Assembly (NCBI GenBank): GCA_900315485.1
Contig: OMZI01000010.1
Coordinates: forward strand, 1-62,597
From: an uncultured Eubacteriales bacterium
GTDB taxonomy: Bacteria > Bacillota > Clostridia > Peptostreptococcales > Anaerovoracaceae
Reading direction: 5' to 3'
Length of the DNA: 62,597 nt
This document shows, piece by piece, positions 30,742-57,461 of this stretch. How positions within the stretch are numbered: the stretch's first letter is position 1; each line of letters starts with the position of its first letter. The position numbers and the translations under genes were made by a program. The notes beneath the pieces are model-generated. The model made no database searches. It was not told where the DNA came from and was given only the letters and a program-made list of their open reading frames with translations.

Positions 30742-30801
30742 GATTTGCCGAAGACAGTCTTCGTATAAGGAGATACAGCGAAAAGAGGATGATTGCTGAT
30801 A

Positions 30802-31917
30802 ATGAAAGAAGTAATACTTATTCTTGGCGCAGGAAATGCGCAGATAGATGCTATCGAATACTGCCGCAGCAAAGGCTATGAGGTCTGCGGATGCAGCTAC
30901 ACGACTGTTGACAACGGTATCCCGTATCTGGACTACTTTGAACATACGGATATCAAAAGCGTCGAGGGCGTTATAGAGGTTGCACGTAAATATAACGTCA
31001 AAGCCATATATTCTGTCGGATCGGATGTTGCTATGCCGACGGTCATGAGAGCGAGCGAAGCTCTCGGACTGCCGCACTTCATCAGACCGGAGACGGCAGA
31101 GACCTGCCATTCCAAGAGCCGTATGAGAGCTATGCTGGGAGACGGTTTCTGTGGAAATGTCAGGTATATCGAATGCACATCCATGGATGAAGCGCTGAGG
31201 TTCAACAGTTTCCCGGGAATGATGAAGCCGACAGACTCGCAGGGGCAGAGGGGCTGCTTCAGAGTGGACTGTCAGGATGATATCCGTAAGGAGTTCCAGA
31301 CATCTATGGATTTTTCCAGTGAGGGAAAGGTCATAATAGAGGAGTTCCTTGAAGGACCGGAGGTATCTCTCAATGGATACATGAAGGACGGCAGGATGAT
31401 ATTCTCACTGGTATCGGACAGGATATCGTTCGATGAATATCCGGGAGGGATCATCAAGGAGCATGTAGTTCCGTCCGGACTCAGCAGTGACATAGTAAGC
31501 GCTACAGAGAAGATGGCCGCAGAAGCCGCTGTAAAGCTCGGCATCATGGATGGACCGTGCTATTTCCAGATCAAACTGAACAGCAAGAACGAACCTAAGA
31601 TACTCGAGGTAACACCGAGGCTTGACGGATGCCATATGTGGAATCTGATCAAGAGATACTGCGGCGTAGATCTGCTGGATGCAAGCTTTTCGCATCTGCT
31701 TACAGGAGACCCGGGCATCGCACCGGATCATAGATTCCCGGCTGAAGAATACAGACTTAAATTCTTCTGCCAGCCGCCGTGGACAAAATTTGACAGCAAG
31801 CTCCACAGCACAGATGGATCGGAATACAGTTTCTATTATTACAAAGACGGGGACAAGGTCCGCAGACTCAACGGATATATTGAGAAATGCGGATATGAGA
31901 TAATAAAGACAGAATAA
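30802..31917 (+). CDS. ATP-grasp domain ligase
   Basis: This 371-residue protein begins with a preATP-grasp fold (VILILGAGNAQID). ATP-grasp motifs follow: GMMKPTDSQGQRG, VIIEEFLEGPEVSLNGYM and the metal-binding ILEVTPRLDG. ATP-grasp enzymes join a carboxylate to an amine or thiol via an acyl phosphate, and this branch resembles carbamoyl-phosphate-synthase-like and peptide-ligase-like proteins. I prefer the ATG at 30802 over the in-frame TTG at 30793 because GAGGA lies at a fitting distance only for the former. It is first in an operon with a CapK-like enzyme (18-bp gap) and an SDR. Two further ATP-grasp genes occur at 40535 and 41765. The substrate is unknown, and an amino-acyl decoration of a glycan is plausible. 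Confidence 0.85.
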   Translation: MKEVILILGAGNAQIDAIEYCRSKGYEVCGCSYTTVDNGIPYLDYFEHTDIKSVEGVIEVARKYNVKAIYSVGSDVAMPTVMRASEALGLPHFIRPETAETCHSKSRMRAMLGDGFCGNVRYIECTSMDEALRFNSFPGMMKPTDSQGQRGCFRVDCQDDIRKEFQTSMDFSSEGKVIIEEFLEGPEVSLNGYMKDGRMIFSLVSDRISFDEYPGGIIKEHVVPSGLSSDIVSATEKMAAEAAVKLGIMDGPCYFQIKLNSKNEPKILEVTPRLDGCHMWNLIKRYCGVDLLDASFSHLLTGDPGIAPDHRFPAEEYRLKFFCQPPWTKFDSKLHSTDGSEYSFYYYKDGDKVRRLNGYIEKCGYEIIKTE

Positions 31918-31935
31918 TAAACAGAGGTGATATAA

Positions 31936-33255
31936 GTGAAATTTGAGAAAAAACTTAAGAACGTATACACATTATACTATTTGCTCACTCTTCACAGACA
32001 TCTGGACGGAGATCCGGAAAAGATCAAGAAGGATCAGAACAAGAGGATCCACAAGCTTATGAAGAGGGCATACAAGATCCCGTTCTATAAGCAGAGATTC
32101 ATTGAGTCCGGAACTACGCCGGATGATTATCACTGTGCTGAGGATCTGGTAAAGTTCCCTGTAATGACCAAGCCGGAACTCAGGCTCTGGATGCAGCAGG
32201 AATGGGAAAATCATCCTGAGAAGCATGATTCGCTTAATGTACACAGCACAAGCGGATCTTCGGGAGTTCCTCTCAAGGTGCTGTACACCCAGAAAGAGCA
32301 GGGATGCAGCGATGCTAACTGGATCAGAGTACTTCGCGATGCAGGATATCATCCATTCAGAGGCAAGATGTACTCCTTCCAGACAAGCCACAGGGATCCG
32401 AACGCGAAGCCTAAGAGAGATTCCTTCATCCAGGCACTTGGCGTAATGCGCCGTAAAGTCGTTTCGGAAGACAACTGTGTCGGCGACGGCATAGCAGATA
32501 CCATCAGAGATATCAACGAATACAAGCCTGACATGATCTGTTTCAGAAGGAACTGCCTCGTCAGGATCGTTGCCTATGCAGAAAAGCATAACATGCCGCT
32601 GTGGAAGCCTAAGCTGTACTGTCCTATCAGTGAGATGGTAGATGATGTGACACGCAATCTTCTTAAGAAGACTCTCGGAGACGGACTTATCGATGCATAC
32701 GGTCTGTCAGAGATGGGCAGCTTCATCTATCAGTATCCGGGCAATGACTTCTACTATGTTGCCAATGATATAGCTGCAGTGAATGTATATGATGACAATA
32801 ACAACCTTGCGGATGACGGAAGGATCATTATCACGTCACTGTACAAAAAGACATATCCGCTGATCAATTACGATACCAGGGATCTCGGCAAGTCATATGT
32901 CAAAGACGGACTCAGATACATGACCAAGATAGAGGGCAGGATGAACGACATGGTCCTGCATGAGGATGGCGTCGAATCGTCAGCGCTTATGCTGATGAGG
33001 ATCGCGAACAAGACGGTCGGACTGTCCCAGTTCAGATTCATCGAAGAGACATATCACGATATGCTCATCCAGCTTGCACCGGACCCGAACAATACATCCA
33101 TGAGCCATGAGGAGATAGAGAAGCATTTCATCGATTCTGTCCGCGAGCTCTATGGCGATGAGTTCAACATCCGCATAGAATGGATGGACGTGCTGCCGCC
33201 GGATAAGACAGGAAAGCAGCGCTGCTTCGTGTGCAATGTCAAGAAAGAGCAGTAG
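31936..33255 (+). CDS. CapK / phenylacetate-CoA-ligase-like AMP-forming enzyme
   Basis: The 439-residue protein shows VHSTSGSSGVPLKV (the phosphate-binding loop of adenylating enzymes), DAYGLSEMG and YDTRDLG, typical of the PaaK/CapK branch of the ANL superfamily. Capsule loci often carry such CapK proteins, whose reaction is mostly unproven. They probably activate a carboxylate by adenylation. The start is GTG at 31936 after AGAGGTGA. It follows the ATP-grasp ligase by 18 bp and precedes an SDR by 7 bp. An adenylating enzyme next to an ATP-grasp ligase suggests activation and transfer of an acid or amino acid to a sugar. Confidence 0.85.
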   Translation: MKFEKKLKNVYTLYYLLTLHRHLDGDPEKIKKDQNKRIHKLMKRAYKIPFYKQRFIESGTTPDDYHCAEDLVKFPVMTKPELRLWMQQEWENHPEKHDSLNVHSTSGSSGVPLKVLYTQKEQGCSDANWIRVLRDAGYHPFRGKMYSFQTSHRDPNAKPKRDSFIQALGVMRRKVVSEDNCVGDGIADTIRDINEYKPDMICFRRNCLVRIVAYAEKHNMPLWKPKLYCPISEMVDDVTRNLLKKTLGDGLIDAYGLSEMGSFIYQYPGNDFYYVANDIAAVNVYDDNNNLADDGRIIITSLYKKTYPLINYDTRDLGKSYVKDGLRYMTKIEGRMNDMVLHEDGVESSALMLMRIANKTVGLSQFRFIEETYHDMLIQLAPDPNNTSMSHEEIEKHFIDSVRELYGDEFNIRIEWMDVLPPDKTGKQRCFVCNVKKEQ

Positions 33256-33262
33256 GTATACC

Positions 33263-34147
33263 ATGAAGGGTATTGTTGTTACGGGGGCAAGCGGAGTAGT
33301 CGGAGGTGCGCTCCTCAGGAGACTTTCCGGTGAGCCTGAAATGGATATCATTGCGCTGAGCCGCAGAGATATGTCCGGGACCGGTCCGGAAGGAGTCAGC
33401 TGGAGGACTACAGACTACTCTGTAAAGAGCCTGACCGAACTGCTTGAGGGAGCATATGCTGTCGTACACCTTGCAGGCAGCGACGGGACCAAAGCGGACC
33501 TGTCGGACTATGATGGAGACCTGGCAATTACAGATAATCTCCTTAAGGCATCTGCAGAGTGCGGAGTGGAACGGTTTATATATGCTTCAAGCAGGCTGGT
33601 CTATGGCAATCCGGATAATATCCCGTGGACAGAGGAGACTGCTCCCGAACCACGGAGCGCGTATGGAGTAAATAAAATACGGTGTGAGGAGCTCTGCCGC
33701 TCATACAGCGGGAAGAGTGGCATGAAAGTCATTGCGGTCAGGATTGCACAGGTACTGAGCGAGACTAGTCAGATGAGGAACATGGTAAATGTCTTCAGAG
33801 ACCTGGCAGGAGAAGGAAAAGAACTGACCGTCACCGGCAGGAGTGAAGCCGTAAGGCAGTACATATACACCGGGGATCTTGCAGAGATATTATTCAGACT
33901 GATAAGCGCTGATGTGCATGGCTTCAGTATAATCAATGCGGGCATGGACAGGGCATATACCAACCTGCAGATCGCGCAGGCGTTCAACAGAGCATATGGG
34001 AACAGCATTCCTGTCCGGTACGATGACAGAAAGCCGGAAACGATAACATCTTCAGTGATGGATGTAGAGAAGCTGAAGAGGCTTACAGGCTTCGTTCCGG
34101 GGGATATGGACGAGACACTGCGCCGGATGGCGAACAGCAGGATATAA
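33263..34147 (+). CDS. NAD-dependent epimerase/dehydratase (extended SDR)
   Basis: The start at 33263 gives 294 residues beginning directly with the Rossmann motif (IVVTGASGVVGGALL). The in-frame start at 33236 lies inside the previous gene. YASSRLVYG supplies the catalytic Ser region and YGVNK the YxxxK pair. GDLAEILFRL and VMDVEKLKRLTGF are typical of nucleotide-sugar epimerases. It is last in the ATP-grasp/CapK operon and stops before a strong bidirectional terminator. The likely substrate is the nucleotide sugar or sugar acid used by that operon, but the sequence does not identify it. Confidence 0.85.
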   Translation: MKGIVVTGASGVVGGALLRRLSGEPEMDIIALSRRDMSGTGPEGVSWRTTDYSVKSLTELLEGAYAVVHLAGSDGTKADLSDYDGDLAITDNLLKASAECGVERFIYASSRLVYGNPDNIPWTEETAPEPRSAYGVNKIRCEELCRSYSGKSGMKVIAVRIAQVLSETSQMRNMVNVFRDLAGEGKELTVTGRSEAVRQYIYTGDLAEILFRLISADVHGFSIINAGMDRAYTNLQIAQAFNRAYGNSIPVRYDDRKPETITSSVMDVEKLKRLTGFVPGDMDETLRRMANSRI

Positions 34148-34187: not shown

Positions 34188-35147
34188 TTAGTTCTTTTCA
34201 TTCTCGTTCCTGTCAGCACCCCGGTAGACTTCCCGCACAACGAACTGCGGATAATTACCGATGGTAAGGAACATCCTGCCTACATATTCTCCGACTACTC
34301 CGAGAGTGATGAGTATGACTCCGGAGAAGAATATGATCGCCATCATCGTTGATGTCCAGCCGAGGATCTGTGTCGACTGAAAGATCTTGCGTATTATGAG
34401 CCAGATCATTCCCAGAATACCGATGAGCGAAAGGAACTCTCCGAACCTCCGTGTTATTTTCAGCGGAACAGTAGAGAACCCTGCAATATTGGACCACAGC
34501 GAGATCAGCTTCTTAAGAGAATAATTGGATGTACCGTATGCTCTTTCGAAATGCTGGATCGGAACGCTGGCAATCTTGGCAGGTGCTACGGTCCTGAGAA
34601 CGAGCCCCTGCATGTGGGAATACTGAGCAGGATACTGTATGATGTTGTCGCGCACGTACTTCCTCATCAGGCAGTAGCTGGATGTTCTGAGATCCTTGGG
34701 CTTGCCTATGAGCAGACGCACCGTTGTATAATTCACCCATGAGCCGAAATTACGGAAGGCTGAATGCTTCTTGTCAGGATAGTATCCGTATATGACATCA
34801 TAACCTTCGTCGAACTTGGCAAGCAGCGGCGGAAGCTGTGAAGGATGAGTCTGCATGTCATCATCCATGAGGATTATAAAATCACCTTCCGCATAGTGAA
34901 GACCTGCCATGATGGCATTGTGCTGACCGGCGTTGCGCGCAAGCTCAACGGCGGTGACATCCTCATATTCGTCAGCCAGAGCCCGGAGCTCAGCAACAGT
35001 AGCACCGGAATCCGGAGAGAAATCATCGACCAGGATCATCTCAAACGGGGTCCTGCCCAGATCGATCATCTCCTTACGTGTCAGTTCGACCATCTGACGG
35101 ATGGTATGAGAAGATTTGTAACAAGGAATTATGATAGAATATTTCAT
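34188..35147 (-). CDS. DPM1-like GT2 glycosyltransferase with C-terminal membrane helices
   Basis: Residues 1 to about 220 are a GT2 domain (IIIPCYKSSHT, LVDDFSPDS, RNAGQHNAIMAG) with the catalytic DDDMQTHP at 95-102. Two hydrophobic helices near 240-300 (ILGMIWLIIRKIF and SGVILITLGVVGEYVG) complete the CsbB/GtrB pattern. Such enzymes load a sugar from UDP onto undecaprenyl phosphate for use outside the membrane. The gene is divergent from a GT-C-like protein at 35220, which could be its user. It closely resembles the GT2 enzyme encoded at 39588, so the locus has at least three lipid-sugar synthases, including the one at 2042. Confidence 0.9.
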   Translation of the reverse strand: MKYSIIIPCYKSSHTIRQMVELTRKEMIDLGRTPFEMILVDDFSPDSGATVAELRALADEYEDVTAVELARNAGQHNAIMAGLHYAEGDFIILMDDDMQTHPSQLPPLLAKFDEGYDVIYGYYPDKKHSAFRNFGSWVNYTTVRLLIGKPKDLRTSSYCLMRKYVRDNIIQYPAQYSHMQGLVLRTVAPAKIASVPIQHFERAYGTSNYSLKKLISLWSNIAGFSTVPLKITRRFGEFLSLIGILGMIWLIIRKIFQSTQILGWTSTMMAIIFFSGVILITLGVVGEYVGRMFLTIGNYPQFVVREVYRGADRNENEKN

Positions 35148-35219: not shown

Positions 35220-36929
35220 ATGAAAGAAAACAGAAACCACAATCTGCTGAAATCGATCGTATTCAATGCTGCTGTACTCGCTGCCGTCCTGTTATTAACG
35301 GATATGGCATACGAGACGAATGACGACTTTGCTATATCATCAAGGCTTGCATCAGGATATCCGTATGTCGGGTTTGTTAATTATTTCCTGTGCAAAGCTC
35401 TAATTGCAGTCCAGCAGGCATTCCCTGTGATCAACTGGTATGTCATATTCCTGATCGCAGTATCATTTATATCGTTCACATGCATCCTGTACACAATAAT
35501 GGATGCAGGCGAAAACCGCATAGTCAGGGCAGCGGCGGCAATGATGATCATATTATTCTCTGTTGATCACTACTGCGCGATACAGTTCACCAAGACAGCC
35601 GCGCTTGTCATGACCGCTGGTATGCTGATGCTCGTCTCGTGCCTGACAGAAAAGAAAAAAGCAACAGCATATATATTCCCGATGATCATGATCTATCTGG
35701 GAGCATGTATAAGGGTGGATGCACTGCTTGCAGCTGCAGGATTCGCAGGTATCTACGGGCTTGTATGGCTTGTCCAGAACAGAAAGAGGCTGATCAGTGA
35801 CGGCTTCTTCACGCTTCCGAAGATCGCTCTGTATATATGCGTTGTAGTGCTCGTTGCAGGCGCATACGGGCTGGATCAGTATTCGTGCAGGATCAACGTC
35901 AGCACTGATGCTCTGAGATATGCTGAGGACTACAGCCTGTACCGTTCGAACATAGTTGACTACCCTACGTTTGAATATTATGAGGACCATGTCGCTGAAT
36001 ATGACGCTATAGGCATTTCTGAAAATGATATATACCTCATAGATCACTGGGTATTCGACTATGAAGGCGCGGCAAGCATGGAGAATCTCAGGAAAATCGA
36101 CAGCATCGACAGAAATAATGACAGCAGGATGACTGTCCTCGTCAAAAGCACGAAACGGTGTATAAAAGAGATATACCGCGGCCTGAGAAAGTTCTCGTTT
36201 ACCGGCATTCATATCATATATCTGTGCTGTCTGGCTTTGTGGCTGATGCTTTCTCTCAAGCCAAAACACTGGGTATACATCTTCGGTACAGGGCTGATGG
36301 CGATAGCGCTGTATGTCGCTGTTTACTATATGCAGAGACCGGCATACAGGGCGCTGTACGTTGCGGATATAGGCGCTGCTGTGTGGCTGATATACTACCT
36401 CATGAAGAACATGGATGAGGTGACTCAGGGCAGGAGAAAGGGTGCATCTGCTGTTATTGGCGTTGCAATCATACTGATCACAGCAATGCTTATGTTCCCT
36501 GCATATAAGGGCTGCCAGAATAAAGCCTCTGCGGCAGCAGGTAAAGCAATGTCTGAAACGATGCAGGAGTTCTTCCTTGACAATGATGACAAATTCTATG
36601 TATGGGCGACTTCAGAAAAGAAATCTTCCAGGCTGTATATGACTCCGTGGCTCGCACCTGATTCGAGAGACCGTAATGTTATCAGTACAGGCGGCTGGGG
36701 TGTGCTGTCGCCTTATATGCTGGACAAACTGGCGGAATATGGCATGTATAACCCGATCAAAGATCTGATCGATAATAATGATGCGTATTATATTGGCAAT
36801 AAAAATATCTCCAGGATGGAAGAGTACTACAACAAATGGTACGGAAGTGATGAAAAGAAGATAAAAATGGAGCAGGTCGATGAAGTCGACGGGAGGAAAA
36901 TCTGGAGGATTATTTCCGCAGTTGATTAA
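35220..36929 (+). CDS. Polytopic membrane protein, probable GT-C-type glycosyltransferase
   Basis: This 569-residue protein has about ten to twelve hydrophobic helices, a large central extracytoplasmic loop (about 225-300) and a soluble C-terminal part after about 435. The first loop has YETNDDFAISS, an acidic DD motif expected of GT-C transferases. It is divergent from a CsbB-like GT2 gene and may use that enzyme's lipid-linked sugar. The family is not recognised with certainty. Its layout is similar to the proteins at 121 and 43020, though sequence likeness is low by eye. Confidence 0.62.
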   Translation: MKENRNHNLLKSIVFNAAVLAAVLLLTDMAYETNDDFAISSRLASGYPYVGFVNYFLCKALIAVQQAFPVINWYVIFLIAVSFISFTCILYTIMDAGENRIVRAAAAMMIILFSVDHYCAIQFTKTAALVMTAGMLMLVSCLTEKKKATAYIFPMIMIYLGACIRVDALLAAAGFAGIYGLVWLVQNRKRLISDGFFTLPKIALYICVVVLVAGAYGLDQYSCRINVSTDALRYAEDYSLYRSNIVDYPTFEYYEDHVAEYDAIGISENDIYLIDHWVFDYEGAASMENLRKIDSIDRNNDSRMTVLVKSTKRCIKEIYRGLRKFSFTGIHIIYLCCLALWLMLSLKPKHWVYIFGTGLMAIALYVAVYYMQRPAYRALYVADIGAAVWLIYYLMKNMDEVTQGRRKGASAVIGVAIILITAMLMFPAYKGCQNKASAAAGKAMSETMQEFFLDNDDKFYVWATSEKKSSRLYMTPWLAPDSRDRNVISTGGWGVLSPYMLDKLAEYGMYNPIKDLIDNNDAYYIGNKNISRMEEYYNKWYGSDEKKIKMEQVDEVDGRKIWRIISAVD

Positions 36930-38310: not shown

Positions 38311-38321
38311 AATATGTGTGT

Positions 38322-39587
38322 ATGACAGAAAAGCTCAAAGGTATTTTCCTTAATACTAAAGACATTGAGAAGTCCAGCTATGCATGGAACTCCGTTTCCG
38401 GTCTGATGTTCGCGATGCAGTCAGCAGTGATGCTGATGGTTATCACAAGAACTAACGGACTTGAGGACGCGGGGATTTTTTCAATTGCATATGCTATAGC
38501 CAGTCTCATGTCATTCATCGGAGAGTATGGTGTCAGGAAATATCAGGTGAGCGACATCAAGGAGAAGATAAGTTTCACGGACTATCACTCCCACAGAGTG
38601 ATCACATGCACCGCTATGCTTGTGACGTTCGTGGTGTATGTAGGCGCCGGCTATCTGAGCGGGCGGTACAGCAGGATCAAATTCTGGGTAATAATCTTCG
38701 TGTGCCTGATCAAGCTCGTTGAGGCATACGCAGATGTATTCTATGTCAGATACCAGCAGTCCGGACGTCTGGATGTAGCGGCCAAGACCAATACATTCAG
38801 GATCGGGATCTCTATGATTGTCTGTATGATATCGCTGGCGGTAACCCATGATCTGCTTCTGTCATCCATAATATGGTTTATTGCGGCAGTCATAACTCTG
38901 TGCATGTCCAGTATAGTTGTGGCCTCTGAGTTCGGAGGCATTCACTTCAGGATCAACAAGGAGTCCCTGATAAAGCTGACCAGGGAATGCTTTCCTCTCT
39001 TCTTAGGGAGCTTCCTGCTGCTCTATGTCGGAAATGCACCGAAGTATGCTATCGATGCTGTGCTGGACGATACAGCACAGGCCTGTTATAACTTCATATT
39101 CATGCCGGTCTTTGTGATAGGAATGCTGGCTAACTTTGTTTTCAATCCTATCCTTGTCAAGCTTGCACATAAGTGGGACAGGAGAGAGATGAAGGTGTTT
39201 ACTCATATCATCGTAAGACAGCTGGGGGTCATAGCTGCGATTACAATGCTGGCTATAGCCGTTGCACTTACGATCGGATGCCCGGTCCTTGGCATTCTGT
39301 ACAATGCGGACCTTCATGAATACAGGATATGCCTGACAATACTGATGGTCGGCGGAGGGATGCTTGCGCTGGTCAACTTCTTCACTGTCGTGGTCACAGT
39401 AGTAAGAGGACAGAATCATCTCATCATAGGTTATATTGCCGTTGCAGTAGTAGCAAAATTGCTTTCGCATTATTTTGTGTCTACATATGGTATAATTGGC
39501 GCGACAGTACTTTATACAGGACTGATGACTCTGCTGTCACTGGTGTTTGCAGCAGTTCTTATAATTTGTGTTAAGAGGAGAAAATAA
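38322..39587 (+). CDS. Wzx-type polysaccharide flippase (MOP superfamily)
   Basis: This polytopic protein of about 421 residues has roughly twelve hydrophobic helices. The N-terminal pattern (SVSGLMFAMQSAVMLMV, GIFSIAYAIASLMSFIGEYG) is that of lipid-linked oligosaccharide flippases. It probably moves an undecaprenyl-linked repeat unit or a modified lipid-sugar outward. The start is uncertain. ATG at 38322 or GTG at 38316 both lie just behind a terminator and have no Shine-Dalgarno site. The stop codon touches the ATG of the GT2 gene (39587/39588). The operon continues with two ATP-grasp genes. Confidence 0.82.
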   Translation: MTEKLKGIFLNTKDIEKSSYAWNSVSGLMFAMQSAVMLMVITRTNGLEDAGIFSIAYAIASLMSFIGEYGVRKYQVSDIKEKISFTDYHSHRVITCTAMLVTFVVYVGAGYLSGRYSRIKFWVIIFVCLIKLVEAYADVFYVRYQQSGRLDVAAKTNTFRIGISMIVCMISLAVTHDLLLSSIIWFIAAVITLCMSSIVVASEFGGIHFRINKESLIKLTRECFPLFLGSFLLLYVGNAPKYAIDAVLDDTAQACYNFIFMPVFVIGMLANFVFNPILVKLAHKWDRREMKVFTHIIVRQLGVIAAITMLAIAVALTIGCPVLGILYNADLHEYRICLTILMVGGGMLALVNFFTVVVTVVRGQNHLIIGYIAVAVVAKLLSHYFVSTYGIIGATVLYTGLMTLLSLVFAAVLIICVKRRK

Positions 39588-40538
39588 ATGCTGTTATCTT
39601 TCGTGATACCATGCTACCGTTCAGCTAAGACTCTTGAAAAGGTGGTTGCTGACATTGAAAGCCAGATAAATGCACATCCGGACTATTCGTCTGAGATAAT
39701 ACTGGTTAATGACGGTTCGCCGGACAACACTTTTGAAGTAATAGAGTCTCTGACGAAGAAGTACAATAATGTAGTGGGTATAGATATAGCCAAGAATCAG
39801 GGACAGCAGAATGCACTTATGGCAGGCTTCAGGGCTTCCAGAGGAGACATAATCCTTGCCTCTGATGATGATGGGCAGACACCTGTTGAGATTTCTTTTC
39901 AGCTGATAGACAAGCTGATCAAAGAGGACTATGATGTCGTCTGCGCCAAGTACGGAGACAGAGGTAAGAGAACGCTGTTCAGAAGACTCGGAACATGGGC
40001 TGACAGGAAGATGGTCAAAGTCTTCCTCGAGAAGCCGGACGATATATCCACATCGGTATTCTTTGCAGCAAGAAGATTCGTTATAGACGAGATCACAAGA
40101 TACGAGAATCCTTATCCATACTGGACAGGACTGCTCCTCAGAACGACACATAACATCGGGAATGTGGAGGTAACACAGAAGGACAGGCTTGCAGGGAGCT
40201 CAGGCTATAATCTCAGAAAGCTCCTCGGACTATGGATCAACGGGTGTACAACATTTTCCATCAAGCCGCTGAGATTCGCAACGCTGACAGGCATGATAAT
40301 TGCGCTGATCGGGTTCGTCACGATCATCGTGATAGCTGTTCAGAAATTCGTCAATCCGAATATGATGAGCGGCTGGACATCCATGATAGCAACGATGCTC
40401 CTCATAGGCGGACTTATCATGATGATGCTGGGTGTCATAGGAGAGTATATAGGGCGTATATATCTGAGCCTTAACGGAAGTCCTCAATATGTTATAAGAA
40501 GAATCATAGATAACAGACAGGAAAGTGACGTCAAGTGA
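39588..40538 (+). CDS. DPM1-like GT2 glycosyltransferase with C-terminal membrane helices
   Basis: Residues 1 to about 215 form a GT2 domain with FVIPCYRSAKT, LVNDGSPDN and KNQGQQNALMAG, and catalytic DDDGQTP at 93-99. Two membrane helices follow (about 230-310, ending in MLGVIGEYIGRIYL). Family members transfer a sugar from a nucleotide to undecaprenyl phosphate. The gene is joined end to end with the flippase gene and overlaps the first ATP-grasp gene by 4 bp (GTGA), so the four genes are one translational unit. This suggests that the lipid-linked sugar is flipped by the upstream protein and modified by the downstream ligases. Confidence 0.9.
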   Translation: MLLSFVIPCYRSAKTLEKVVADIESQINAHPDYSSEIILVNDGSPDNTFEVIESLTKKYNNVVGIDIAKNQGQQNALMAGFRASRGDIILASDDDGQTPVEISFQLIDKLIKEDYDVVCAKYGDRGKRTLFRRLGTWADRKMVKVFLEKPDDISTSVFFAARRFVIDEITRYENPYPYWTGLLLRTTHNIGNVEVTQKDRLAGSSGYNLRKLLGLWINGCTTFSIKPLRFATLTGMIIALIGFVTIIVIAVQKFVNPNMMSGWTSMIATMLLIGGLIMMMLGVIGEYIGRIYLSLNGSPQYVIRRIIDNRQESDVK

Positions 40539-41761
40539 AGAAATTAATGGTATTGGGCGCCGGATTGTATCAGGTGCCGCTGATCAGAACAGCACAATCA
40601 CGCGGGATATATACTATTGCCGTATCTCCCGCAGGTGACTATCCCGGACTTGAGATCGCAGATAAGTCGTATCTGTATGATGTAAGGGATGAAGAGAATA
40701 TCCTCAAAGCAGCGCAGGAAGCAGGGATAGACGGGATCACAACGGACCAGACAGATATAGCTGTCAGGACTGTCGCTTATGTTGCGAATAACATGAGTCT
40801 TCCGGGCATTGACTATGATTGTGCGGTAAGATTCACTGATAAGTATCAGATGAGAGAATGCTGCGAAGCGCTCGGGCTGCCGACTATCAGGCACAGGATA
40901 GTGTCAACAGCAGATGAGGCTAAGGCATTTCTTGCTGAAACCGGCACAGCAGCGATCATCAAACCGGTGGACAATCAGGGCAGCAGAGGTATCTACAGAA
41001 TCGATTCAGATGCAGATATCGACAGATATTTCGAAAGTTCGATGTCCTTCTCCAAGTCCGGTAAAGTCATAATAGAGCAGTTCATAGAGGGAAAGGAATT
41101 CGAGGTAGATGATATCGTTTTCCGCGGTGAGGTCAGGCCTCTGATGTACTGCGATATCGATCTGTTTGATATCCCGAATGTATTCGCGTCAAGGACGAGG
41201 ATATATCCGTCCAACGAGCCGGATGATGTCGTCAGAAGACTCCTTGATACGGACAGAAAGACCATAGAGGGACTCGGCCTGAGCCAGGGCCTGACACACA
41301 GTGAATACAAGATGTCTGCAGACGGCACGGTATACCTTCTTGAAGCAGCCTGCCGCGGAGGCGGAGCTTATGTATCCTCGCACATCACTCCTCTTCAGAC
41401 CGGCCTCAAGACAGCCGATCTGCTGATAGACATGGCGATGGGAGACATGAAGGCCATTCCTGAATATGAGACAGCGAAGTGCCACTGTGCGACTCTCTGC
41501 TTCTATCTTCCGGTCGGAGAAGTTGTCTCCACAGAAGGAATAGAGGAAGTTCAGAGAATGCCGTTCGTCAATAAAGAGCATCTGGGCGGAATCAGGAAGG
41601 GAATGAAAACAACACAGTTCTCTGACAAGACCGCAAGATATGTCACTGTCGTATATGCAGATACTCATGAGGAGCTGCTTCGCAATATAGACAGGATAAG
41701 AGAAACTCTTCACATTCAGGTCATGACTGATCATGGTATCGAAGGGCCTATCTGGGGATAG
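40535..41761 (+). CDS. ATP-grasp domain ligase
   Basis: This 408-residue protein starts with a dinucleotide-fold-like segment (LMVLGAGLYQVPLI). ATP-grasp motifs are AIIKPVDNQGSRGIYR, VIIEQFIEGKEFEVDDI and the metal-ligand region YLLEAACRGGG. It belongs to the carbamoyl-phosphate-synthase-like or BL00235/LysX-like ligases that form amide or ester bonds with ATP. The GTG start at 40535 overlaps the GT2 gene by 4 bp. The next ATP-grasp gene follows after 3 bp. The two are distant paralogues, so they may add different groups in sequence. The acceptor is unknown. Confidence 0.86.
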   Translation: MKKLMVLGAGLYQVPLIRTAQSRGIYTIAVSPAGDYPGLEIADKSYLYDVRDEENILKAAQEAGIDGITTDQTDIAVRTVAYVANNMSLPGIDYDCAVRFTDKYQMRECCEALGLPTIRHRIVSTADEAKAFLAETGTAAIIKPVDNQGSRGIYRIDSDADIDRYFESSMSFSKSGKVIIEQFIEGKEFEVDDIVFRGEVRPLMYCDIDLFDIPNVFASRTRIYPSNEPDDVVRRLLDTDRKTIEGLGLSQGLTHSEYKMSADGTVYLLEAACRGGGAYVSSHITPLQTGLKTADLLIDMAMGDMKAIPEYETAKCHCATLCFYLPVGEVVSTEGIEEVQRMPFVNKEHLGGIRKGMKTTQFSDKTARYVTVVYADTHEELLRNIDRIRETLHIQVMTDHGIEGPIWG

Positions 41762-41764
41762 AAC

Positions 41765-42937
41765 ATGAAGAAAGTATTAGTATTAGGAGCAGGAAGAGGT
41801 CAGGTTGGACTGATCAAAGCTGCGCATAATCTTGGATATAAAGCAATCGTTGCGAGCATTCCCGGAGATTATCCGGGCTTCAGCATTGCGGATGAGGTAT
41901 ACGATGTTGACCTTCGTGATGCGGAGGCTGTAGCTGAGCTCGCCGGCAGGCTGAAGGTTGACGGAGTCGTTGCGGCAGGAGCAGATCTTGCTCTTCCTGC
42001 ACTCGGAGCTGCCTGTGAAGACAATTCACTTCCGGGACTCAGCAGAGCAGCCGCCAGGACATCGTCGGACAAGAGCCTGATGAAAGCAGCATTCGCTGAG
42101 AATGGCGTCAGGACAGCGAGACATATCGTTGCATACTCTGAGGAAGATGCTGTAAGAGCGACGAAAGACTTAAACATGCCGGTCATTGTAAAGGCAATAG
42201 ATCTTGGCGGGAGCAGAGGCATCAATATAGTGTTCAGGGAAGATGAAATAACTGATGCATTCAGGAACACTATGTCTGTAACGCACGCAGATCACTGCGT
42301 GATAGAAGAGTACATCGACGGATATGAGGTCAGTGCGACTGCCATGGTTGCAGGAGGAGAGACTCTATTCGTACTCCCGATGGGAGATGTCCGCTATGGG
42401 GCCAATGACGAGATCCCTGTCGGACACTATGTGCCGCTGGATGTTGACCCGGATATATGCGAGGATATTATCACTCAGGTAAGGCTGGCAATAAATGCGA
42501 TCGGGCTGGACAACTGTGCAGTAAATGCTGATCTCATGATACTGGACAGAAAAGCATACGTCCTTGAGCTTACAGGAAGGCTCGGTGCCAATGCGATACC
42601 TGAGATAACCAATGAGTATTATGGCCTTGACATCCATGAACTTATAGTAGAGGCTGCACTGGGCAATGCAGACAGAATAAAACAGCATGACTTCAGCAGT
42701 CACAGCGATAAGGTGTGCTATGCGCAGATGCTTATTTCAGAAAAAGGAGGCACTCTTCTCAGTACAGAAATAGATGATGATGCCTGTGACGCATGGTTCT
42801 TCAAAAGGAAAGGGGACAGGATCGATCCTTTCAGAAGTCCTCATGACTGTGTAGGACAGGTCGTGGTAACAGGAGACACCATCGAAGAATGCAGGGATCA
42901 TGTTCAGCGTATCCTGAACAAACTGCAGATCGCATAA
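41765..42937 (+). CDS. ATP-grasp domain ligase
   Basis: The 390-residue protein has VLVLGAGRGQVGLI at the N-terminus. The ATP-grasp core follows: VIVKAIDLGGSRGINIV, CVIEEYIDGYEVSATAMV and LELTGRLGANAIPEI. These are the ATP-binding and metal-binding signatures of the superfamily. The C-terminal 90 residues form the usual lid or small domain. It is last in the flippase/GT2/ATP-grasp operon and is followed by a strong terminator. Relationship to the ATP-grasp protein at 30802 is visible in the opening motif and the overall plan. What it ligates cannot be read from the sequence. Confidence 0.86.
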   Translation: MKKVLVLGAGRGQVGLIKAAHNLGYKAIVASIPGDYPGFSIADEVYDVDLRDAEAVAELAGRLKVDGVVAAGADLALPALGAACEDNSLPGLSRAAARTSSDKSLMKAAFAENGVRTARHIVAYSEEDAVRATKDLNMPVIVKAIDLGGSRGINIVFREDEITDAFRNTMSVTHADHCVIEEYIDGYEVSATAMVAGGETLFVLPMGDVRYGANDEIPVGHYVPLDVDPDICEDIITQVRLAINAIGLDNCAVNADLMILDRKAYVLELTGRLGANAIPEITNEYYGLDIHELIVEAALGNADRIKQHDFSSHSDKVCYAQMLISEKGGTLLSTEIDDDACDAWFFKRKGDRIDPFRSPHDCVGQVVVTGDTIEECRDHVQRILNKLQIA

Positions 42938-43019: not shown

Positions 43020-45140
43020 TTACTCAGCTATCTCATAGATGTCGATATCATCGTTGGAATAACACAATTCGTAATCTTCATTAGTGAGATCAGGAACATC
43101 TGTGAACCTCTTGGAGACAACGACATAGTCAACATCTAGCTCTCTGGCGAGGTCGCCGCGGTCTTCGAAATCTGCATCATACAGCTTGTTGTTGGTCTCA
43201 ATCATTTCTTTCCGTACAGGCCAGTCATTCATCGGGATGTTGTAGCCTGACCCGGAGATGTAGCTGAATCTGTTGGAGTATACAGCATACAGGAAGAACC
43301 TGTTGGACCATCTGTTTTCATAGGAATAATCCTCTGGAGCTACACTGTAATAACGGTCTGTAGCAATCAGCGCGTCTTCTGCTGTGTTGTGTTCGAGCCA
43401 CTGCATCGCCTCATATTCGTCGCGGGTGACGCTGAGATACTGGCTGTGTTCTATAGTCGGGTCAGCGCTGCTTGCAGCCTCAGTAATATGATTGCTGTAG
43501 TATACCGCGAGGGACCAGGTTGTAAACATCAGGATCACAGCAGAAATGCATGTGATGATCCTGAGAGAATGCCTGGCAAGTCCAGACGCCGGCGCACGCT
43601 CCTCCATATCCTCTATAAACCAGAATGCTACCATCGGAGCAAGGAATGCAGTGACCAGCCCGAAATACACCTGACTGTGGCCGCTGTAATTGAGTATGAA
43701 CATAGCGATGAACCCTACAGCACACTCTGCGTATACCAGGACTCTGGCAGGTTCGAACGGCTTGCGTCCTGTCAGAACGAGAGCCAGTTCCCGGATGTAT
43801 CCTATGCAGAACGGCAGCAGGAATGCTGTCAGGAAGAATGCTATGAATACCATCAGCACGATCACAAGGCGGACGCTGGTCGGTATGGAGTATGACTTGA
43901 GAAGTTCGATCAGCGGCCTTTTCCAGAACGAGATATCTGCTATAGTGGCGATCCTGATCACTGACTGACCTGATGCATTGCTCTGTCCTTTGGAGCCGAG
44001 GACTGTAAGATATACAAGCAGAAAGCCTGCTGTGAAGGTCAGCATCGGGAGGATGGTCTTAGGGGAGACTTTGCGCATGATGATGCCGAGCATCATCGTG
44101 CCCCAGATGCCTGCAACCGTAACGGCGCCCATAGGACCCTTGACTCCCGTGGTCAGCATTATGAACAGTGTCAGCAATATAAGGAGAGACCACCGGGTGG
44201 ATTCCTTATTCCTGAAGCTGTCATACCACTGACGGAATACAACGATCGTCATCAGAGCCGCAGCCATCCCGTATCCGGCGGAATTATCATTGATGAGAAT
44301 GAATTTGAACGCCAGCGATGATGTCGTGTTCCTGGTAATGTACAGGTTGGACAGCAGCAGAATCATGCAGTAAAGACCTGCGCGCTCAGGGCGCGAGGAC
44401 ATCTCCCTGAAGAAACTGTACATAGAGAGGCCAAAGCAGAATGCAGTCAGAAATGGTCCGAATGACAGCGTGATCAGGTCCGAAGATATCCCGAACAGCT
44501 TGACCGGTATCGACAGGAGCATTTCGCTGAAAATATGGTAGTTGATGAATACTCCGGAGACCCACGGGCTCTGCAGAGGGTAATCGTGCGACAGGGAGTT
44601 TATAAGGCCAAGGTGATAGGCCTTGTCAGGGTTCATATATGTCGAGTCACTGATTGCCGGTGAGAGATACAGATACTGTGTGTTGATGATGCAGTAGAGC
44701 AGGATCAGCACGAAAAAGATGCAGAACAATACCGGGATACGGTCAAGGCGTATCCTGCGCGGTGCTATACCGTTTTTATTATCGCGGATCAGCGCCGCGA
44801 TATACAGAAGTGCGAGCAGCGGACATACTGCATACAGGATAAGTGTCGAGTGCAGCCAGTCCGCGATAAAGTACACTATCAGGTTGACCGCCCATCCGGC
44901 AAAAAAGCCGACAGCGATCTGGGTAGACAGGTATTTCTGTTTTATACCTGTCAGCCGGAGTACGAGCAGTCCCGGCAGTTGCACATATATGACTGTGAAT
45001 GCAGCGAGGATACATAGCCCCGGAAAGGATGCTCCATATACATTCACACTTATCGCAAGCATAACAACAACAGCGGTCAGGCAGATAAGTCTGACCGCTG
45101 TGCTGAGCATCTTATTACTGGAGTTCTTTACTGTTGACAT
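43020..45140 (-). CDS. Large polytopic membrane protein, GT-C-like
   Basis: This 706-residue protein has about thirteen or more hydrophobic helices and a soluble C-terminal domain (about 565-706). The large loop at about 150-215 contains NPDKAYHLGLINSLSH and FINYHIFSEM, acidic and His-containing motifs like those of polymer-related GT-C proteins. The C-terminal domain (YEAMQWLEHNT, ATDRYYS) resembles the soluble end of PMT/YfhO-like membrane proteins. It lies 2 bp downstream of a lipoprotein gene on the same strand, so the two are co-transcribed. Function is not recognised beyond a probable surface-glycan role. Confidence 0.62.
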   Translation of the reverse strand: MSTVKNSSNKMLSTAVRLICLTAVVVMLAISVNVYGASFPGLCILAAFTVIYVQLPGLLVLRLTGIKQKYLSTQIAVGFFAGWAVNLIVYFIADWLHSTLILYAVCPLLALLYIAALIRDNKNGIAPRRIRLDRIPVLFCIFFVLILLYCIINTQYLYLSPAISDSTYMNPDKAYHLGLINSLSHDYPLQSPWVSGVFINYHIFSEMLLSIPVKLFGISSDLITLSFGPFLTAFCFGLSMYSFFREMSSRPERAGLYCMILLLSNLYITRNTTSSLAFKFILINDNSAGYGMAAALMTIVVFRQWYDSFRNKESTRWSLLILLTLFIMLTTGVKGPMGAVTVAGIWGTMMLGIIMRKVSPKTILPMLTFTAGFLLVYLTVLGSKGQSNASGQSVIRIATIADISFWKRPLIELLKSYSIPTSVRLVIVLMVFIAFFLTAFLLPFCIGYIRELALVLTGRKPFEPARVLVYAECAVGFIAMFILNYSGHSQVYFGLVTAFLAPMVAFWFIEDMEERAPASGLARHSLRIITCISAVILMFTTWSLAVYYSNHITEAASSADPTIEHSQYLSVTRDEYEAMQWLEHNTAEDALIATDRYYSVAPEDYSYENRWSNRFFLYAVYSNRFSYISGSGYNIPMNDWPVRKEMIETNNKLYDADFEDRGDLARELDVDYVVVSKRFTDVPDLTNEDYELCYSNDDIDIYEIAE

Positions 45141-45858: not shown

Positions 45859-46878
45859 ATGAAAATATTAGTTACCGGTGCTGCCGGATTCATCGGCAGC
45901 AATTTCGTATTCCACATGCTGGATGCGCACCCGGATTACGATATAGTCGCTCTCGATTCCCTGACATATGCAGGTAATCTTGAGACACTTGCACCTGTGA
46001 TGGATAATCCTCACTTCAAGTTCGTGAAGATCGACATCACTGACAAGGAAGCAATCGATAAGCTGTTCGAAGAGGAGAAGTTCAACAAGGTGGTGAACTT
46101 CGCTGCAGAATCCCACGTAGACCGTTCAATCGAGGATCCCGGCATCTTCCTCAGGACCAACATCCTTGGTACTCAGGTGCTGATGGATGCATCCATAAAG
46201 AACGGCGTGGAGAGATTCCATCAGGTAGGCACAGACGAAGTATACGGAGACCTTCCGCTTGACAGACCTGACCTCTTCTTCGTAGAGACCATGCCGCTGA
46301 CAGCATCCAGTCCATACTCTGCTTCCAAAGCGAGCGCAGACCTGCTTGTGATGGCATATCACAGGACATACGGACTGCCTGTAACGATCAGCAGATGCTC
46401 CAACAACTACGGACCTTACCAGTTCCCTGAAAAGCTGATCCCGCTGATGATCGCAAACGCACTCGCAGACAAGCCGCTGCCTGTATACGGCGAAGGCCTC
46501 AACGTAAGAGACTGGCTCTATGTCGAGGACCACTGCAGAGCCATCGATCTTATACTCGAGAACGGCAGAGTCGGCGAAGTCTACAACATCGGCGGCCACA
46601 ACGAGAAGGCCAACATCGAAGTTGTAAAGATCATCCTTGAGCAGCTCGGCAAGCCTGAGAGCCTGATTACATACGTTACAGACCGCAAGGGACATGACCA
46701 GAGATACGCCATCGACCCTACCAAGATCCACAATGAACTCGGATGGCTGCCTGAGACAAAGTTCGAAGACGGCATCCGCAAGACCATCCAGTGGTACCTC
46801 GACAACGAGGCATGGTGGAAGAATATCGTAAGCGGTGAGTATCAGCAGTATTATGAGAAGATGTATGGCAACCGCTAG
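45859..46878 (+). CDS. rmlB: dTDP-glucose 4,6-dehydratase
   Basis: The 339-residue extended SDR carries [14 protein letters not shown] (NAD-binding loop), [19 protein letters not shown] and YSASKASAD (YxxxK). [10 protein letters not shown] and [12 protein letters not shown] are hallmark motifs of RmlB/RfbB. It converts dTDP-glucose to dTDP-4-keto-6-deoxyglucose. The Asp-Glu pair in TDEVYG, which does the dehydration, is present. An aminotransferase follows 82 bp downstream. RmlA, which makes dTDP-glucose, and RmlC/RmlD are not in the window, so the keto-sugar probably goes to an amino sugar rather than rhamnose. Confidence 0.95.
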
Positions 46879-46960
46879 TATGCTCATACAGCTTCCGTAA
46901 TATAAGTGTTAAAAAAGCATAAGGGTGTTGCAGACAAAAAAGATTTTTAAGGAGAACAAA

Positions 46961-48094
46961 ATGATACCTTTCAACAGACCTCCGTTCATCGGAAAAGAAA
47001 AGGAATATATCAATCAGGCAATAGATAACAAAAAGATATGCGGTGACGGTGAATTCAGCAAGAAGTGTCACGCATGGATCGAGGAGAAGACAGGCGCAGC
47101 CAAGGCGCTGCTCGTTACATCGGGCTCAACAGCACTCGACATGGCAGCTATACTGTCGGATGTAAAACCGGGAGATGAGGTCATCCTCCCTTCATATACA
47201 TTCGTATCTACAGCAAACGCATTCGTTCTGAGAGGGGCCAAGCTTGTCTTTGTGGATATCCGTCCGGATACCCAGAATATCGATGAGAAGCTCATCGAAG
47301 ATGCGATAACAGACAAGACTAAGGTCATCGCACCGGTCCACTATGCAGGCGTAGGCTGCGAGATGGATACCATCATGGATATCGCGAAGAGACACAACCT
47401 CATCGTCGTTGAGGACGCAGCACAGGGTGTCAATGCATTTTACAAGGGAAGAGCACTTGGCAGCATCGGTGATTATGGCTGCTACAGTTTCCATGAGACC
47501 AAGAACTACAGCATGGGTGAAGGCGGAGCTCTTCTCATCCGTGATGAGGACAAGGTGGATCAGGCTGAGATCATAAGAGAAAAGGGTACCGACAGGAGCC
47601 GCTTCCTCAAGGGCATGATCGACAAGTACACCTGGGTGGACATGGGATCTTCTTACCTCCCAAGTGATATAAATGCGGCATATCTGTACGCTCAGCTCGA
47701 ACAGGCTGACATGATCAACCAGAACAGAAGAGCAAGCTGGGATGCATACTATGAGATGCTGACACCTCTTGCAGAGGAGGGCAAAATCGTTCTTCCTGTC
47801 GTTCCTGAGGAATGCGACCACAATTCGCACATGTTCTATGTAAAAACTGCCGGAATCGATGAGAGGACAGCACTTTCAGCTTTCCTTAAGGAGAACGGAA
47901 TCGGCTCAGCATTCCACTATGTGCCGCTTCACAGTGCACCTGCAGGTGCTAAGTTCGGCAGATTCCACGGAGAGGACAAGTATACTACTGATACTTTCGA
48001 AAGACTTCTCCGTATGCCGATGTACTACGGACTGACTCATGACGAAGTAGAGTTCGTATGCGACAAGATCAGAGAGTTCTATAAGAACAAATAA
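46961..48094 (+). CDS. wecE: WecE-type dTDP-4-keto-6-deoxyhexose aminotransferase
   Basis: I chose the ATG at 46961, with AAGGAGA six bases before it, over an in-frame GTG at 46925. The 377-residue PLP enzyme has TSGSTALDMAA, PSYTFVSTANAF, EDAAQGVNAFYKG and SFHETKNYSMGEGG, in which K181 should bind PLP. This is the DegT/DnrJ/EryC1 fold, and the motif set matches WecE/RffA, which make dTDP-4-amino-4,6-dideoxy-D-galactose. With RmlB next door, the pair predicts a Fuc4N- or Qui4N-type sugar in the surface polymer. Residues alone do not fix the stereochemistry at C4. Confidence 0.9.
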   Translation: MIPFNRPPFIGKEKEYINQAIDNKKICGDGEFSKKCHAWIEEKTGAAKALLVTSGSTALDMAAILSDVKPGDEVILPSYTFVSTANAFVLRGAKLVFVDIRPDTQNIDEKLIEDAITDKTKVIAPVHYAGVGCEMDTIMDIAKRHNLIVVEDAAQGVNAFYKGRALGSIGDYGCYSFHETKNYSMGEGGALLIRDEDKVDQAEIIREKGTDRSRFLKGMIDKYTWVDMGSSYLPSDINAAYLYAQLEQADMINQNRRASWDAYYEMLTPLAEEGKIVLPVVPEECDHNSHMFYVKTAGIDERTALSAFLKENGIGSAFHYVPLHSAPAGAKFGRFHGEDKYTTDTFERLLRMPMYYGLTHDEVEFVCDKIREFYKNK

Positions 48095-52819: not shown

Positions 52820-54001
52820 TTGGATAAAAAAAGTTCAGGAGCAATCAAATACAGGTATCTTGCAGCTGTATTATTCATACTGGCAGTATTCGCATGCACT
52901 GCACTGAATGCGAAAGAGGTGCTGCAGCATTATATGGATGGGACCACGCGGGGCATCAGAGCACTGGCTGAGGATGCAGAATCTGTGGATGCTATAGTAT
53001 ATCCTTTTGTCAATCTGAACGGAGCATTTCAGGGAATGATGCAGAGAGACTACATTTATGACGCGAACCCTGCGAATGACACGATCAGAAAGAAGAGCGG
53101 ATACATAGTTTCCAATCCTTCGGGATATTCAGATGAAGATGTCGCAGCAGCCGCTGAAAATCTGAAGGCTTCTGCAGACTGGCTTGCCGCCTATGATATC
53201 CCGCTCGTGTACATCCAGGTACCGAGCAAGATGTCCCTGTCGCCTGATGAAGCGATGCCGGGCATCCCTAACCACACATATGCCAGGAATACACTGTTCC
53301 GTGAAAAGGCAGAGGCTCTTGGGATCAATTATGTTGATGCGAACCAGTGGCTGACCGGGACTGATGCAGACTTCTACATTACTGACCATCACTGGACTAC
53401 AACAGCAAGCTTTGATGCTACAAGAGGGATCTGTGAGTATCTGAACGAAAACTATGACATGGGACTGGATACAGGCATTCTGGATGAAGATAATTATGAA
53501 ATGATCACTCATAAGAATGCATTTCTCGGAGCTGAAGGCAGAAGGACGGGGATATGGTACGTGGGTCTTGATGATTTTGTCGAAATAATTCCTGACTTTG
53601 AAACGGATTTCTCAATAAACATAAGCCACAAGGATCTCGACAGAACTGAAAGAGAAGGCGACTTCAAAACTGCGGTCATGGATACGTCAAAAGACGCCGC
53701 TCATTACAGCTTTGAGGACAGTGCATATTATGAGTACTGGGGCGGTGACTACGGAAGAGTTCATGTTGTGAATAACATGAATAAGAACGGAAGAAAGATC
53801 ATGGTCTTCAAAGACAGCTATGGTATTCCTGTTACAGCCTTCATGACGAACCTCTTTGAGGAGATGGAGATCATGGACATCAGATACTATAACGACGAGA
53901 AGAGTATCAAGGAAATCATAGCGGAAGAGAGGCCTGATGCGGTGCTGTACGTATACGGAACAGGGTATCTTTCGAAACCGAAGATGTTTGCTATAAAGTA
54001 G
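52820..54001 (+). CDS. DHHW/AlgX-like SGNH-fold protein, partner of the MBOAT acyltransferase
   Basis: An N-terminal signal anchor (about 13-30) precedes a 360-residue extracytoplasmic domain. It has YIQVPSKMSL, YITDHHWTT (DHHW at 189-192) and FKDSYGIPVTAF, which provide the Asp-His and Ser of an SGNH-type transferase or esterase. DHHW and AlgX/AlgJ-like proteins act outside the membrane beside an MBOAT protein to place acetyl groups on a polymer. The start is TTG at 52820 after AGGAT. With the MBOAT gene just upstream, the pair forms a complete O-acylation module. Confidence 0.86.
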   Translation: MDKKSSGAIKYRYLAAVLFILAVFACTALNAKEVLQHYMDGTTRGIRALAEDAESVDAIVYPFVNLNGAFQGMMQRDYIYDANPANDTIRKKSGYIVSNPSGYSDEDVAAAAENLKASADWLAAYDIPLVYIQVPSKMSLSPDEAMPGIPNHTYARNTLFREKAEALGINYVDANQWLTGTDADFYITDHHWTTTASFDATRGICEYLNENYDMGLDTGILDEDNYEMITHKNAFLGAEGRRTGIWYVGLDDFVEIIPDFETDFSINISHKDLDRTEREGDFKTAVMDTSKDAAHYSFEDSAYYEYWGGDYGRVHVVNNMNKNGRKIMVFKDSYGIPVTAFMTNLFEEMEIMDIRYYNDEKSIKEIIAEERPDAVLYVYGTGYLSKPKMFAIK

Positions 54002-57428: not shown

Positions 57429-57447
57429 AATATATTGCATATATTGC

Positions 57448-57461
57448 ACGCTGCAGCTGCA
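57448..57461. promoter_or_regulatory. Perfect 14-bp palindrome between tagO and the LCP gene
   Basis: GCTGCAGCTGCAGC is its own reverse complement and lies 20 bp after the tagO stop and 19 bp before the LCP start. It may be an mRNA fold or a protein-binding site, or a chance PstI/PvuII-rich run. Confidence 0.3.

Follow-up and report, generated by a model that had tools for sequence, protein, structure and literature searches.

On a 62,597-nucleotide contig of an uncultured Eubacteriales bacterium of the family Anaerovoracaceae (OMZI01000010.1 of assembly GCA_900315485.1; hereafter the window), four consecutive genes on the plus strand encode a Wzx-like flippase, a family 2 glycosyltransferase (GT2) and two ATP-grasp ligases. 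The host genome measures 2.5 Mb and is 86% complete; since the window is one whole contig, the locus may extend beyond either end. Of the four open reading frames (ORFs), the first two abut with 0 bases between them, the second and third overlap by 4 bases and the last two are 3 bases apart, which agrees with the end-to-end or overlapping arrangement described in the original prediction, where the genes were proposed to form a lipid-sugar aminoacylation system. The flippase ORF (38316-39587, 423 amino acids, 10 hydrophobic segments) starts with GTG at 38316, the ATG at 38322 being the start taken previously, and matched the Pfam family Polysacc_synt (PF01943) with 46.1 bits (cut-off 28.2). The GT2 (39588-40538, 316 amino acids), here named GT2p, matched Glycos_transf_2 in Pfam with 93.8 bits (cut-off 23.3) and is a putative ArnC/PgfS-like polyprenyl-phosphate glycosyltransferase. 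Its nearest NCBIfam models were PgfS (1.7e-44) and ArnC (1.8e-39), both matched far under their curated cut-offs; with 135.6 bits against the ArnC equivalog (cut-off 529) it is ArnC-like, not ArnC. GT2p carries two C-terminal hydrophobic segments, as expected of a membrane-tethered polyprenyl-phosphate transferase, and was therefore classed as ArnC/GtrB-like and not with the soluble DPM1-like enzymes. AGa (40535-41761, 408 amino acids), an ATP-grasp ligase of the L-amino-acid-ligase type according to Pfam, NCBIfam and a structure model, starts with GTG within the last 4 bases of GT2p. AGb (41765-42937, 390 amino acids), assigned by Pfam, NCBIfam and a PDB match to the family of entry 4dim, begins after the 3-base gap behind AGa. 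The two ligases are indeed distinct, being 28-29% identical and falling in separate clades of the tree.

Fold and active site of the ATP-grasp ligases

Both AGa and AGb scored above the Pfam cut-offs for ATP-grasp_4 and GARS_A, while LAL_C2 was passed by AGb (33.3 bits, cut-off 29.4) and failed by AGa (25.4 bits). The predicted structure of AGa (pLDDT 94) points to an ATP-grasp fold with a LAL C-terminal domain; its top Foldseek match was 4dim, followed by the L-amino-acid ligases BL00235, RizA and BacD. The structure-based look at a ligase active site that had been suggested gave a favourable result: E257, E270 and R274 of AGa align with acidic and arginine residues of BacD, presumably its Mg ligands and oxyanion arginine, and A278 aligns with BacD Trp332 (number fixed by the title of entry 3wo1). 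In an alignment of 24 ATP-grasps, K103, K143, E181, E270 and R274 were invariant. Fold and active site of the model together suggest that the ligases carry out aminoacylation.

AGb matched 4dim, a protein of Anaerococcus prevotii deposited as phosphoribosylglycinamide synthetase, with an E-value of 8.1e-95. Close homology to a known soluble pathway had been named as the finding that would tell against the prediction, and with PurD it was not seen: AGb reached 60.4 bits against TIGR00877 (PurD; cut-off 288). An identity with PurD was rejected, the true purD of the same genome lying on contig C39 with 509.8 bits, and PurK and PurT were discarded likewise, the window ATP-grasp matches falling under the NCBIfam cut-offs. 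Because the purD of the genome sits elsewhere, the purine name of 4dim finds no support here; 4dim groups with glycan-locus ligases, and its deposited name may be a misannotation. A scan of genome contigs with AGa yielded 15 loci, with best segments 22-29% identical and none of them close; three were annotated and proved uninformative. A tree of 80 ATP-grasps contained 8 rows of the AGa clade, 26 of the group containing AGb, 12 of the clade of AGc (the third ATP-grasp of the window), 12 of a group of 370-amino-acid proteins and 11 of the group from the module found outside the genus.

Coupling of GT2 and ATP-grasp genes in the genus

The window and 36 genus-genome stretches around ATP-grasp matches were annotated by BLAST and with hidden Markov models (HMMs) from the window families. 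Genes were counted as adjacent when they shared a strand and lay no more than 200 bases apart, and labels were shuffled within loci 2000 times as the null. A GT2 adjoined 33 of the 60 ATP-grasp ORFs, against 8.6 +/- 2.5 (maximum 18) after shuffling, and was the commonest partner; a PaaK gene adjoined 15, against 4.2 expected from the shuffles. Conversely, 29 of the 52 GT2 ORFs in these loci adjoined an ATP-grasp. As the stretches had been picked for ATP-grasps, the coupling was also tested starting from GT2p. A search of 47 genus genomes yielded 19 relatives at E-values up to 1e-70, the window included, in 19 genomes, and an ATP-grasp lay directly beside every one of them (19/19). At locus L137 the GT2, overlain by an antisense ORF, was the search match itself, and at L144 the ATP-grasp is truncated at the contig end. 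By ligase clade, a GT2 was adjacent in 6/8 cases for AGa, 7/11 for the 370-amino-acid group, 18/26 for the AGb-containing group and 2/12 for AGc; in three of the four non-adjacent cases of the 370-amino-acid group (L078, L079, L081) an SMR pair stands between ligase and GT2.

Counted as a same-strand pair with a gap under 250 bases, GT2 and ATP-grasp were found together in 36 of 39 genus genomes examined. This survey covered 39 of the 47 genomes; among the other eight, five had no ATP-grasp at 1e-50 and three (G005, G459, G463) had one. In the three genomes where the pair was missing, there was a contig end (G016), the GT2 had the opposite orientation (G028) or there was an ATP-grasp/PaaK cassette only (G030). 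The recurring unit is a GT2 with an ATP-grasp, with or without a flippase. The four-gene order, for which a neighbourhood survey had been suggested, was rejected as the conserved unit: a Wzx-like gene stood directly beside GT2p in 0 of the 18 other relatives.

Of the 36 genus genomes with the pair, 22, the window included, have a flippase gene beside it when the next gene on either side is taken in any orientation and at any distance and unlabelled ORFs under 150 amino acids are skipped. The flanking gene is of SMR type in 12 genomes and Wzx-like in 11, the window among the latter and G465 counted in both. Behind many of the pairs come genes for two small EamA/SMR proteins, each about 110-127 amino acids long (EamA by Pfam); three of five SMR proteins tested gave ArnE/ArnF matches, the best to ArnF at 1.4e-11 and all under the family cut-offs. 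In the window, the Wzx-like gene occupies the place where the SMR genes of relatives stand. The original proposal that ligase, polyprenyl-sugar GT2 and flippase are coupled therefore stands in part, the GT2/ATP-grasp association being far above chance and a flippase being frequent beside it; it is not borne out for the clade of AGb itself (0/5 beside a GT2), and AGb as a constant GT2 partner was not upheld. In the window and in L064, the member of the AGb clade adjoins another ATP-grasp that does neighbour a GT2.

Sugar supply and transfer genes

Two genes for an activated amino sugar lie downstream on the plus strand. RmlB, dTDP-glucose 4,6-dehydratase (45859-46878), scored 496 bits (cut-off 365), and WecE, dTDP-4-amino-4,6-dideoxygalactose (dTDP-Fuc4N) transaminase (46925-48094), 619 bits (cut-off 375). 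Against the ArnB model WecE reached 192.7 bits (cut-off 631), which places it as a DegT-family 4-amino-sugar transaminase of the dTDP-Fuc4N type. RmlA is present in the genome outside the window.

Between the four genes and rmlB, on the minus strand, lies GTCb (43020-45140), a membrane protein with a probable GT-C fold. Its predicted structure (pLDDT 77.7) gave 17 Foldseek matches at E-values below 4e-3, all with a Foldseek probability of 1.00. Fifteen were named OST, AglB, PglB, DPY19, AftA or ArnT, which we take to be GT-C enzymes, and two were translocon complexes, one named with OST-A. A profile of GTCb against PDB sequences gave no match up to an E-value of 1. A second possible GT-C, the multi-membrane-segment protein GTCa (35220-36929, plus strand), was recognized by its hydrophobic segments and had no Pfam or NCBIfam match.

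The module outside the genus

In a phylum set of 398 genomes, searches were made with AGb (threshold 1e-25) and with the ATP-grasp of locus L074 (threshold 1e-60). The wider regions show a recurrent combination of WecE, GT2 and ATP-grasp, usually near SsuA-SsuC-SsuB-like ABC genes, a GT-C-like gene and LysR, and sometimes RmlB. In L074, WecE scores above the cut-off for dTDP-Fuc4N transaminases, ArnC is the nearest family of the GT2, and the GT-C, the only one outside the genus checked with Pfam, is a PMT. Relatives of the L074 ATP-grasp occurred in 19 of the 398 genomes with a GT2 as the next gene in 19/19; as the strict threshold selects close relatives, this demonstrates conservation of the module without implying that a GT2 stands beside every such ligase. 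In 12 of the 19 loci an SsuA-like gene adjoins the ATP-grasp on the side away from the GT2, and in 14 WecE lies beyond the GT2. The other five comprise one locus cut by a contig end and four in which the ATP-grasp is neighboured by weakly SMR-like ORFs (24-48 bits); in the extended regions L193-L195, which are among them, WecE lies farther upstream, and the gene in between is weakly PMT_2-like in L193 (21.4 bits, cut-off 26.1) and without a Pfam match in L195. WecE directly adjoins the GT2 in 12 families, and this type of GT2/ATP-grasp occurs in 14.

The order WecE-GT2-ATP-grasp followed by SsuA- and SsuC-like genes, mostly with an SsuB-like gene too, recurs across many families of Bacillota and was seen in L074, L075, L076, L104, L105, L107, L108, L110, L196, L197, L198 and L202; in L073, L106 and L109 the Ssu genes are not adjacent to the ATP-grasp. 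This Ssu-like, sulfonate-type importer may bring in the acyl donor. A GTCb-like protein takes the place of the GT-C of other loci in L104 and L105. At L111:4073-16391 (G254), a single run comprises an NDP-hexose 2,3-dehydratase, WecE, a GNAT-like protein, GT2, ATP-grasp, an SMR pair and an FkbH-like protein, the GNAT- and FkbH-like proteins being judged by eye. This run may encode a variant of the pathway discussed below that uses a deoxyamino sugar.

Surrounding teichoic-acid-type locus

By its gene content the window reads as a locus of the teichoic-acid type. Family-library scans of its ORFs, from which 121-7080 and 10546-11274 were left out, matched TagB/F-type polymerases, TagGH export, a TagO-like initiator and an LCP ligase at family level, and the Tag/Tar equivalog cut-offs were reached by none of the teichoic-type proteins of the window. 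Among the scanned ORFs are six PF04464 glycerophosphotransferases, one of them TarF-like (24029-25420); 16310-17933 encodes an ABC-2 permease and a TagH-like ATPase, and 56028-58778 a WecA/TagO-like initiating transferase with the LCP ligase, these three segments all on the plus strand. A 1096-amino-acid protein (7196-10486) is a GT2 fused with a PF04464 glycerophosphotransferase domain. Within the same locus, 17991-20106 encodes a MoxR-type AAA ATPase and also matches DUF58 weakly, under the cut-off, and 25436-26584 a polysaccharide deacetylase with an fn3 domain, nearest to PgaB/IcaB.

AGc (30793-31917, plus strand, by NCBIfam) is followed by a PaaK-like adenylate-forming enzyme (31936-33255, plus strand; NCBIfam matches below cut-offs, no Pfam match) and an NAD-dependent sugar epimerase/reductase (SDR; 33236-34147, plus strand; Pfam, NCBIfam). 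The AGc-PaaK cassette recurs, usually with the SDR, at 55-69% identity to the window for AGc and 68-78% for the adjoining PaaK; the cassette at 30793-34147 may activate or attach another acyl group. On the minus strand follows GT2r (34188-35147), a second GT2 that is ArnC-like by NCBIfam; it has no ATP-grasp neighbour in the window, while GT2r genes of relatives often adjoin AGb-related ligases.

On the plus strand, a DltB-like MBOAT acyltransferase (51347-52744; 165 bits, cut-off 375) is followed by an AlgX/SGNH-like partner found in the family scan (52820-54001). A DltA search of the same genome returned nothing over the cut-off, the DltA-like protein on contig C58 scoring 254 bits against 559.85. 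At L037:7741-12123, an AMP-binding enzyme, judged DltA-like by position, adjoins an MBOAT and a w46-like protein; together they may form a second modification system of the ester type.

Discussion

Gene identities, the GT2/ATP-grasp coupling, the ATP-grasp active-site residues of AGa and the probable GT-C fold were computed directly. On balance we lean, if only slightly, towards a pathway of extracytoplasmic modification that resembles Arn/Gtr and includes an additional ATP-grasp ligase, and in which an amide would be formed on a lipid-linked amino sugar before export. RmlA, RmlB and WecE would supply dTDP-4-amino-4,6-dideoxygalactose, and GT2p would load a sugar, most likely this one or a relative, onto undecaprenyl phosphate at the inner face of the membrane. 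AGa, perhaps followed by AGb, would activate a carboxylic acid with ATP, most likely an amino acid, and join it by an amide bond to the sugar amine before or after lipid loading; as nucleophile the amine of Fuc4N would be the obvious choice, and as donor an amino acid. The Wzx-like flippase, or in other genomes the ArnE/ArnF-like pair in that place, would turn the lipid-sugar outward, where GTCb would pass the decorated sugar to the teichoic-acid-type polymer of the same locus. The ligases probably attach amino acids to the lipid-carried sugar. In this scheme we infer the substrates, the order of loading and ligation, the role of AGb and the final acceptor.

Several observations weigh against the scheme. 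The exact gene order was seen in the window alone among the loci examined, which the original prediction had itself listed as a finding against it. Of the GT2 ORFs in the genus loci, 23/52, including GT2r, have no adjoining ATP-grasp; the AGc group adjoins a GT2 in just 2/12 cases and the five-row clade of AGb in none. Outside the genus, the AGb search found 19 places, with a GT2 as the next gene in seven and one gene away in one more. GTCb is encoded on the strand opposite to the four-gene run, and its TM-scores, normalised to query length, all lie under 0.5 (0.36-0.49) with a root-mean-square deviation of 11-18 A, for which reason its fold class is only probable. WecE was not found at 1e-60 in 11 of the 47 genus genomes, several of them incomplete, and five of these (G012, G022, G029, G033, G467) keep the GT2/ATP-grasp pair, with PaaK beside it instead in G012, G033 and G467. 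Fuc4N would thus not be the sole acceptor, unless WecE was missed in incomplete genomes, and as an obligatory acceptor it was not upheld.

It is doubtful, although a good deal speaks for it, that the ligases act on a cytoplasmic backbone or main-chain nucleotide sugar and that their adjacency to GT2 reflects a shared glycan cluster and not a shared lipid intermediate. In 12 of the 19 ATP-grasp places outside the genus the HMMs find no GT2 as the next gene, most of these regions hold DegT- or SDR-like sugar genes, and the 0/5 of the AGb clade fits the same explanation, as does Cj1438, a GT2 with a TupA-like ATP-grasp which forms amides on growing capsule (PMC11800379). However, a ligase directly beside all 19 GT2p relatives, a pairing common to several separate ligase clades and a flippase gene adjoining the pair in 22 of 36 genomes would not be expected from a generic cluster effect. 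Ligases that make a soluble dipeptide or metabolite in the manner of BacD or RizA, and that stand in the locus by chance or have their products attached by other enzymes, for example PaaK-like ones, are quite improbable. Amino-acid ligases are the closest characterised structures, the AGc-PaaK cassette recurs and PaaK adjoins ATP-grasps more often than expected, but the commonest partner is GT2. A purine-enzyme identity of the ATP-grasps (PurD/PurK/PurT), which the name of 4dim and its match to AGb would suggest, is barely credible beside a true purD on another contig, PurK and PurT matches below cut-off and four such ATP-grasp genes in one glycan locus of a relative.

The latter locus, L030:205-8686 (G027), is a same-strand run of a GT2 and four ATP-grasps, with a 476-base gap before the fourth, then a PaaK-like enzyme and an SDR. 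Since in G461 three ATP-grasps and PaaK likewise accompany a GT2 (L199), and the window has GT2p with two ATP-grasps and a third, AGc, about 9 kb off, an assembly line may be imagined in which each ATP-grasp adds one residue, and the resulting amide-linked oligopeptide on the undecaprenyl-phosphate sugar is turned outward and transferred to teichoic acid; we consider this unlikely.

The framework of the preferred lipid-linked pathway resembles the known Arn/Gtr scheme (GT2-flippase-GT-C) and a CsbB/YfhO-like one. The Arn pathway (ArnB-ArnC-ArnA/ArnD-ArnE/F-ArnT) adds 4-amino-4-deoxy-L-arabinose (Ara4N) to lipid A. Both have a 4-amino-sugar transaminase, an ArnC-like GT2 and a GT-C transferase (probable here); the SMR genes of relatives, with scores under the ArnE/F cut-offs, may correspond to the Arn flippase, and an acyl group on the sugar amine would be a further likeness. 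The window differs in its transaminase of the dTDP-Fuc4N type (WecE), in a target that would be teichoic-acid-like, and in an ATP-grasp ligase that takes the place of the formyltransferase and deformylase of Arn; the best ArnA match in the same genome was 155.9 bits over model positions 4-307 (cut-off 777). BL00235, RizA and BacD, the best characterised structural matches of AGa with aligned catalytic residues, join free amino acids, whereas the context of AGa points to a glycan acceptor.

In Bacillus subtilis, CsbB, YkcC and YkoT (with YfhO, YkcB and YkoS) act in undecaprenyl-phosphate-sugar modification of surface polymers: the GT2 loads undecaprenyl phosphate and a membrane enzyme transfers the sugar to polymers such as lipoteichoic acid, and no ATP-grasp ligase is mentioned in the accessible part of that account (PMC11081497). 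In the Campylobacter jejuni capsule, Cj1438 likewise couples a GT2 with an ATP-grasp in forming a sugar amide, but there the ATP-grasp is TupA-like, the GT2 polymerises capsule and the sugar, glucuronic acid, gives the carboxylate (PMC11800379). AslA of lactic acid bacteria is an ATP-grasp that attaches the amino acid D-Asp to a precursor of the cell wall; its acceptor is a lysine of the peptidoglycan peptide, and the accessible part of the account mentions no GT2 partner (PMC4155827). A 2014 paper on a clostridial glycan cluster labels its CA_C2189 as an amino acyl ligase of the ATP-grasp kind (PMC4000134). The accessible parts of the accounts of Cj1438, AslA and CA_C2189 do not describe the GT2/flippase/ATP-grasp combination. 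Literature titles and abstract openings, with subscription journals thinly covered, likewise gave no GT2/flippase/ATP-grasp lipid-sugar pathway, and an earlier prediction is possible. ATP-grasp amidoligases were reportedly surveyed by Iyer et al. in 2009.

The GT2/ATP-grasp pairing, which recurs in related bacteria, seems to be a new form of a surface-modification pathway that is already known. D-alanine esters and Ara4N alter surface charge, and amide-linked acyl groups would, if the proposed pathway is true, shift the charge of wall polymers. It would also provide testable substrates for ATP-grasps whose best matches bear purine, carbamoyl-phosphate or 'hypothetical' names, and ligase, undecaprenyl-phosphate-sugar synthase and flippase would together constitute a new charge-changing route in Gram-positives, across many families of Bacillota.

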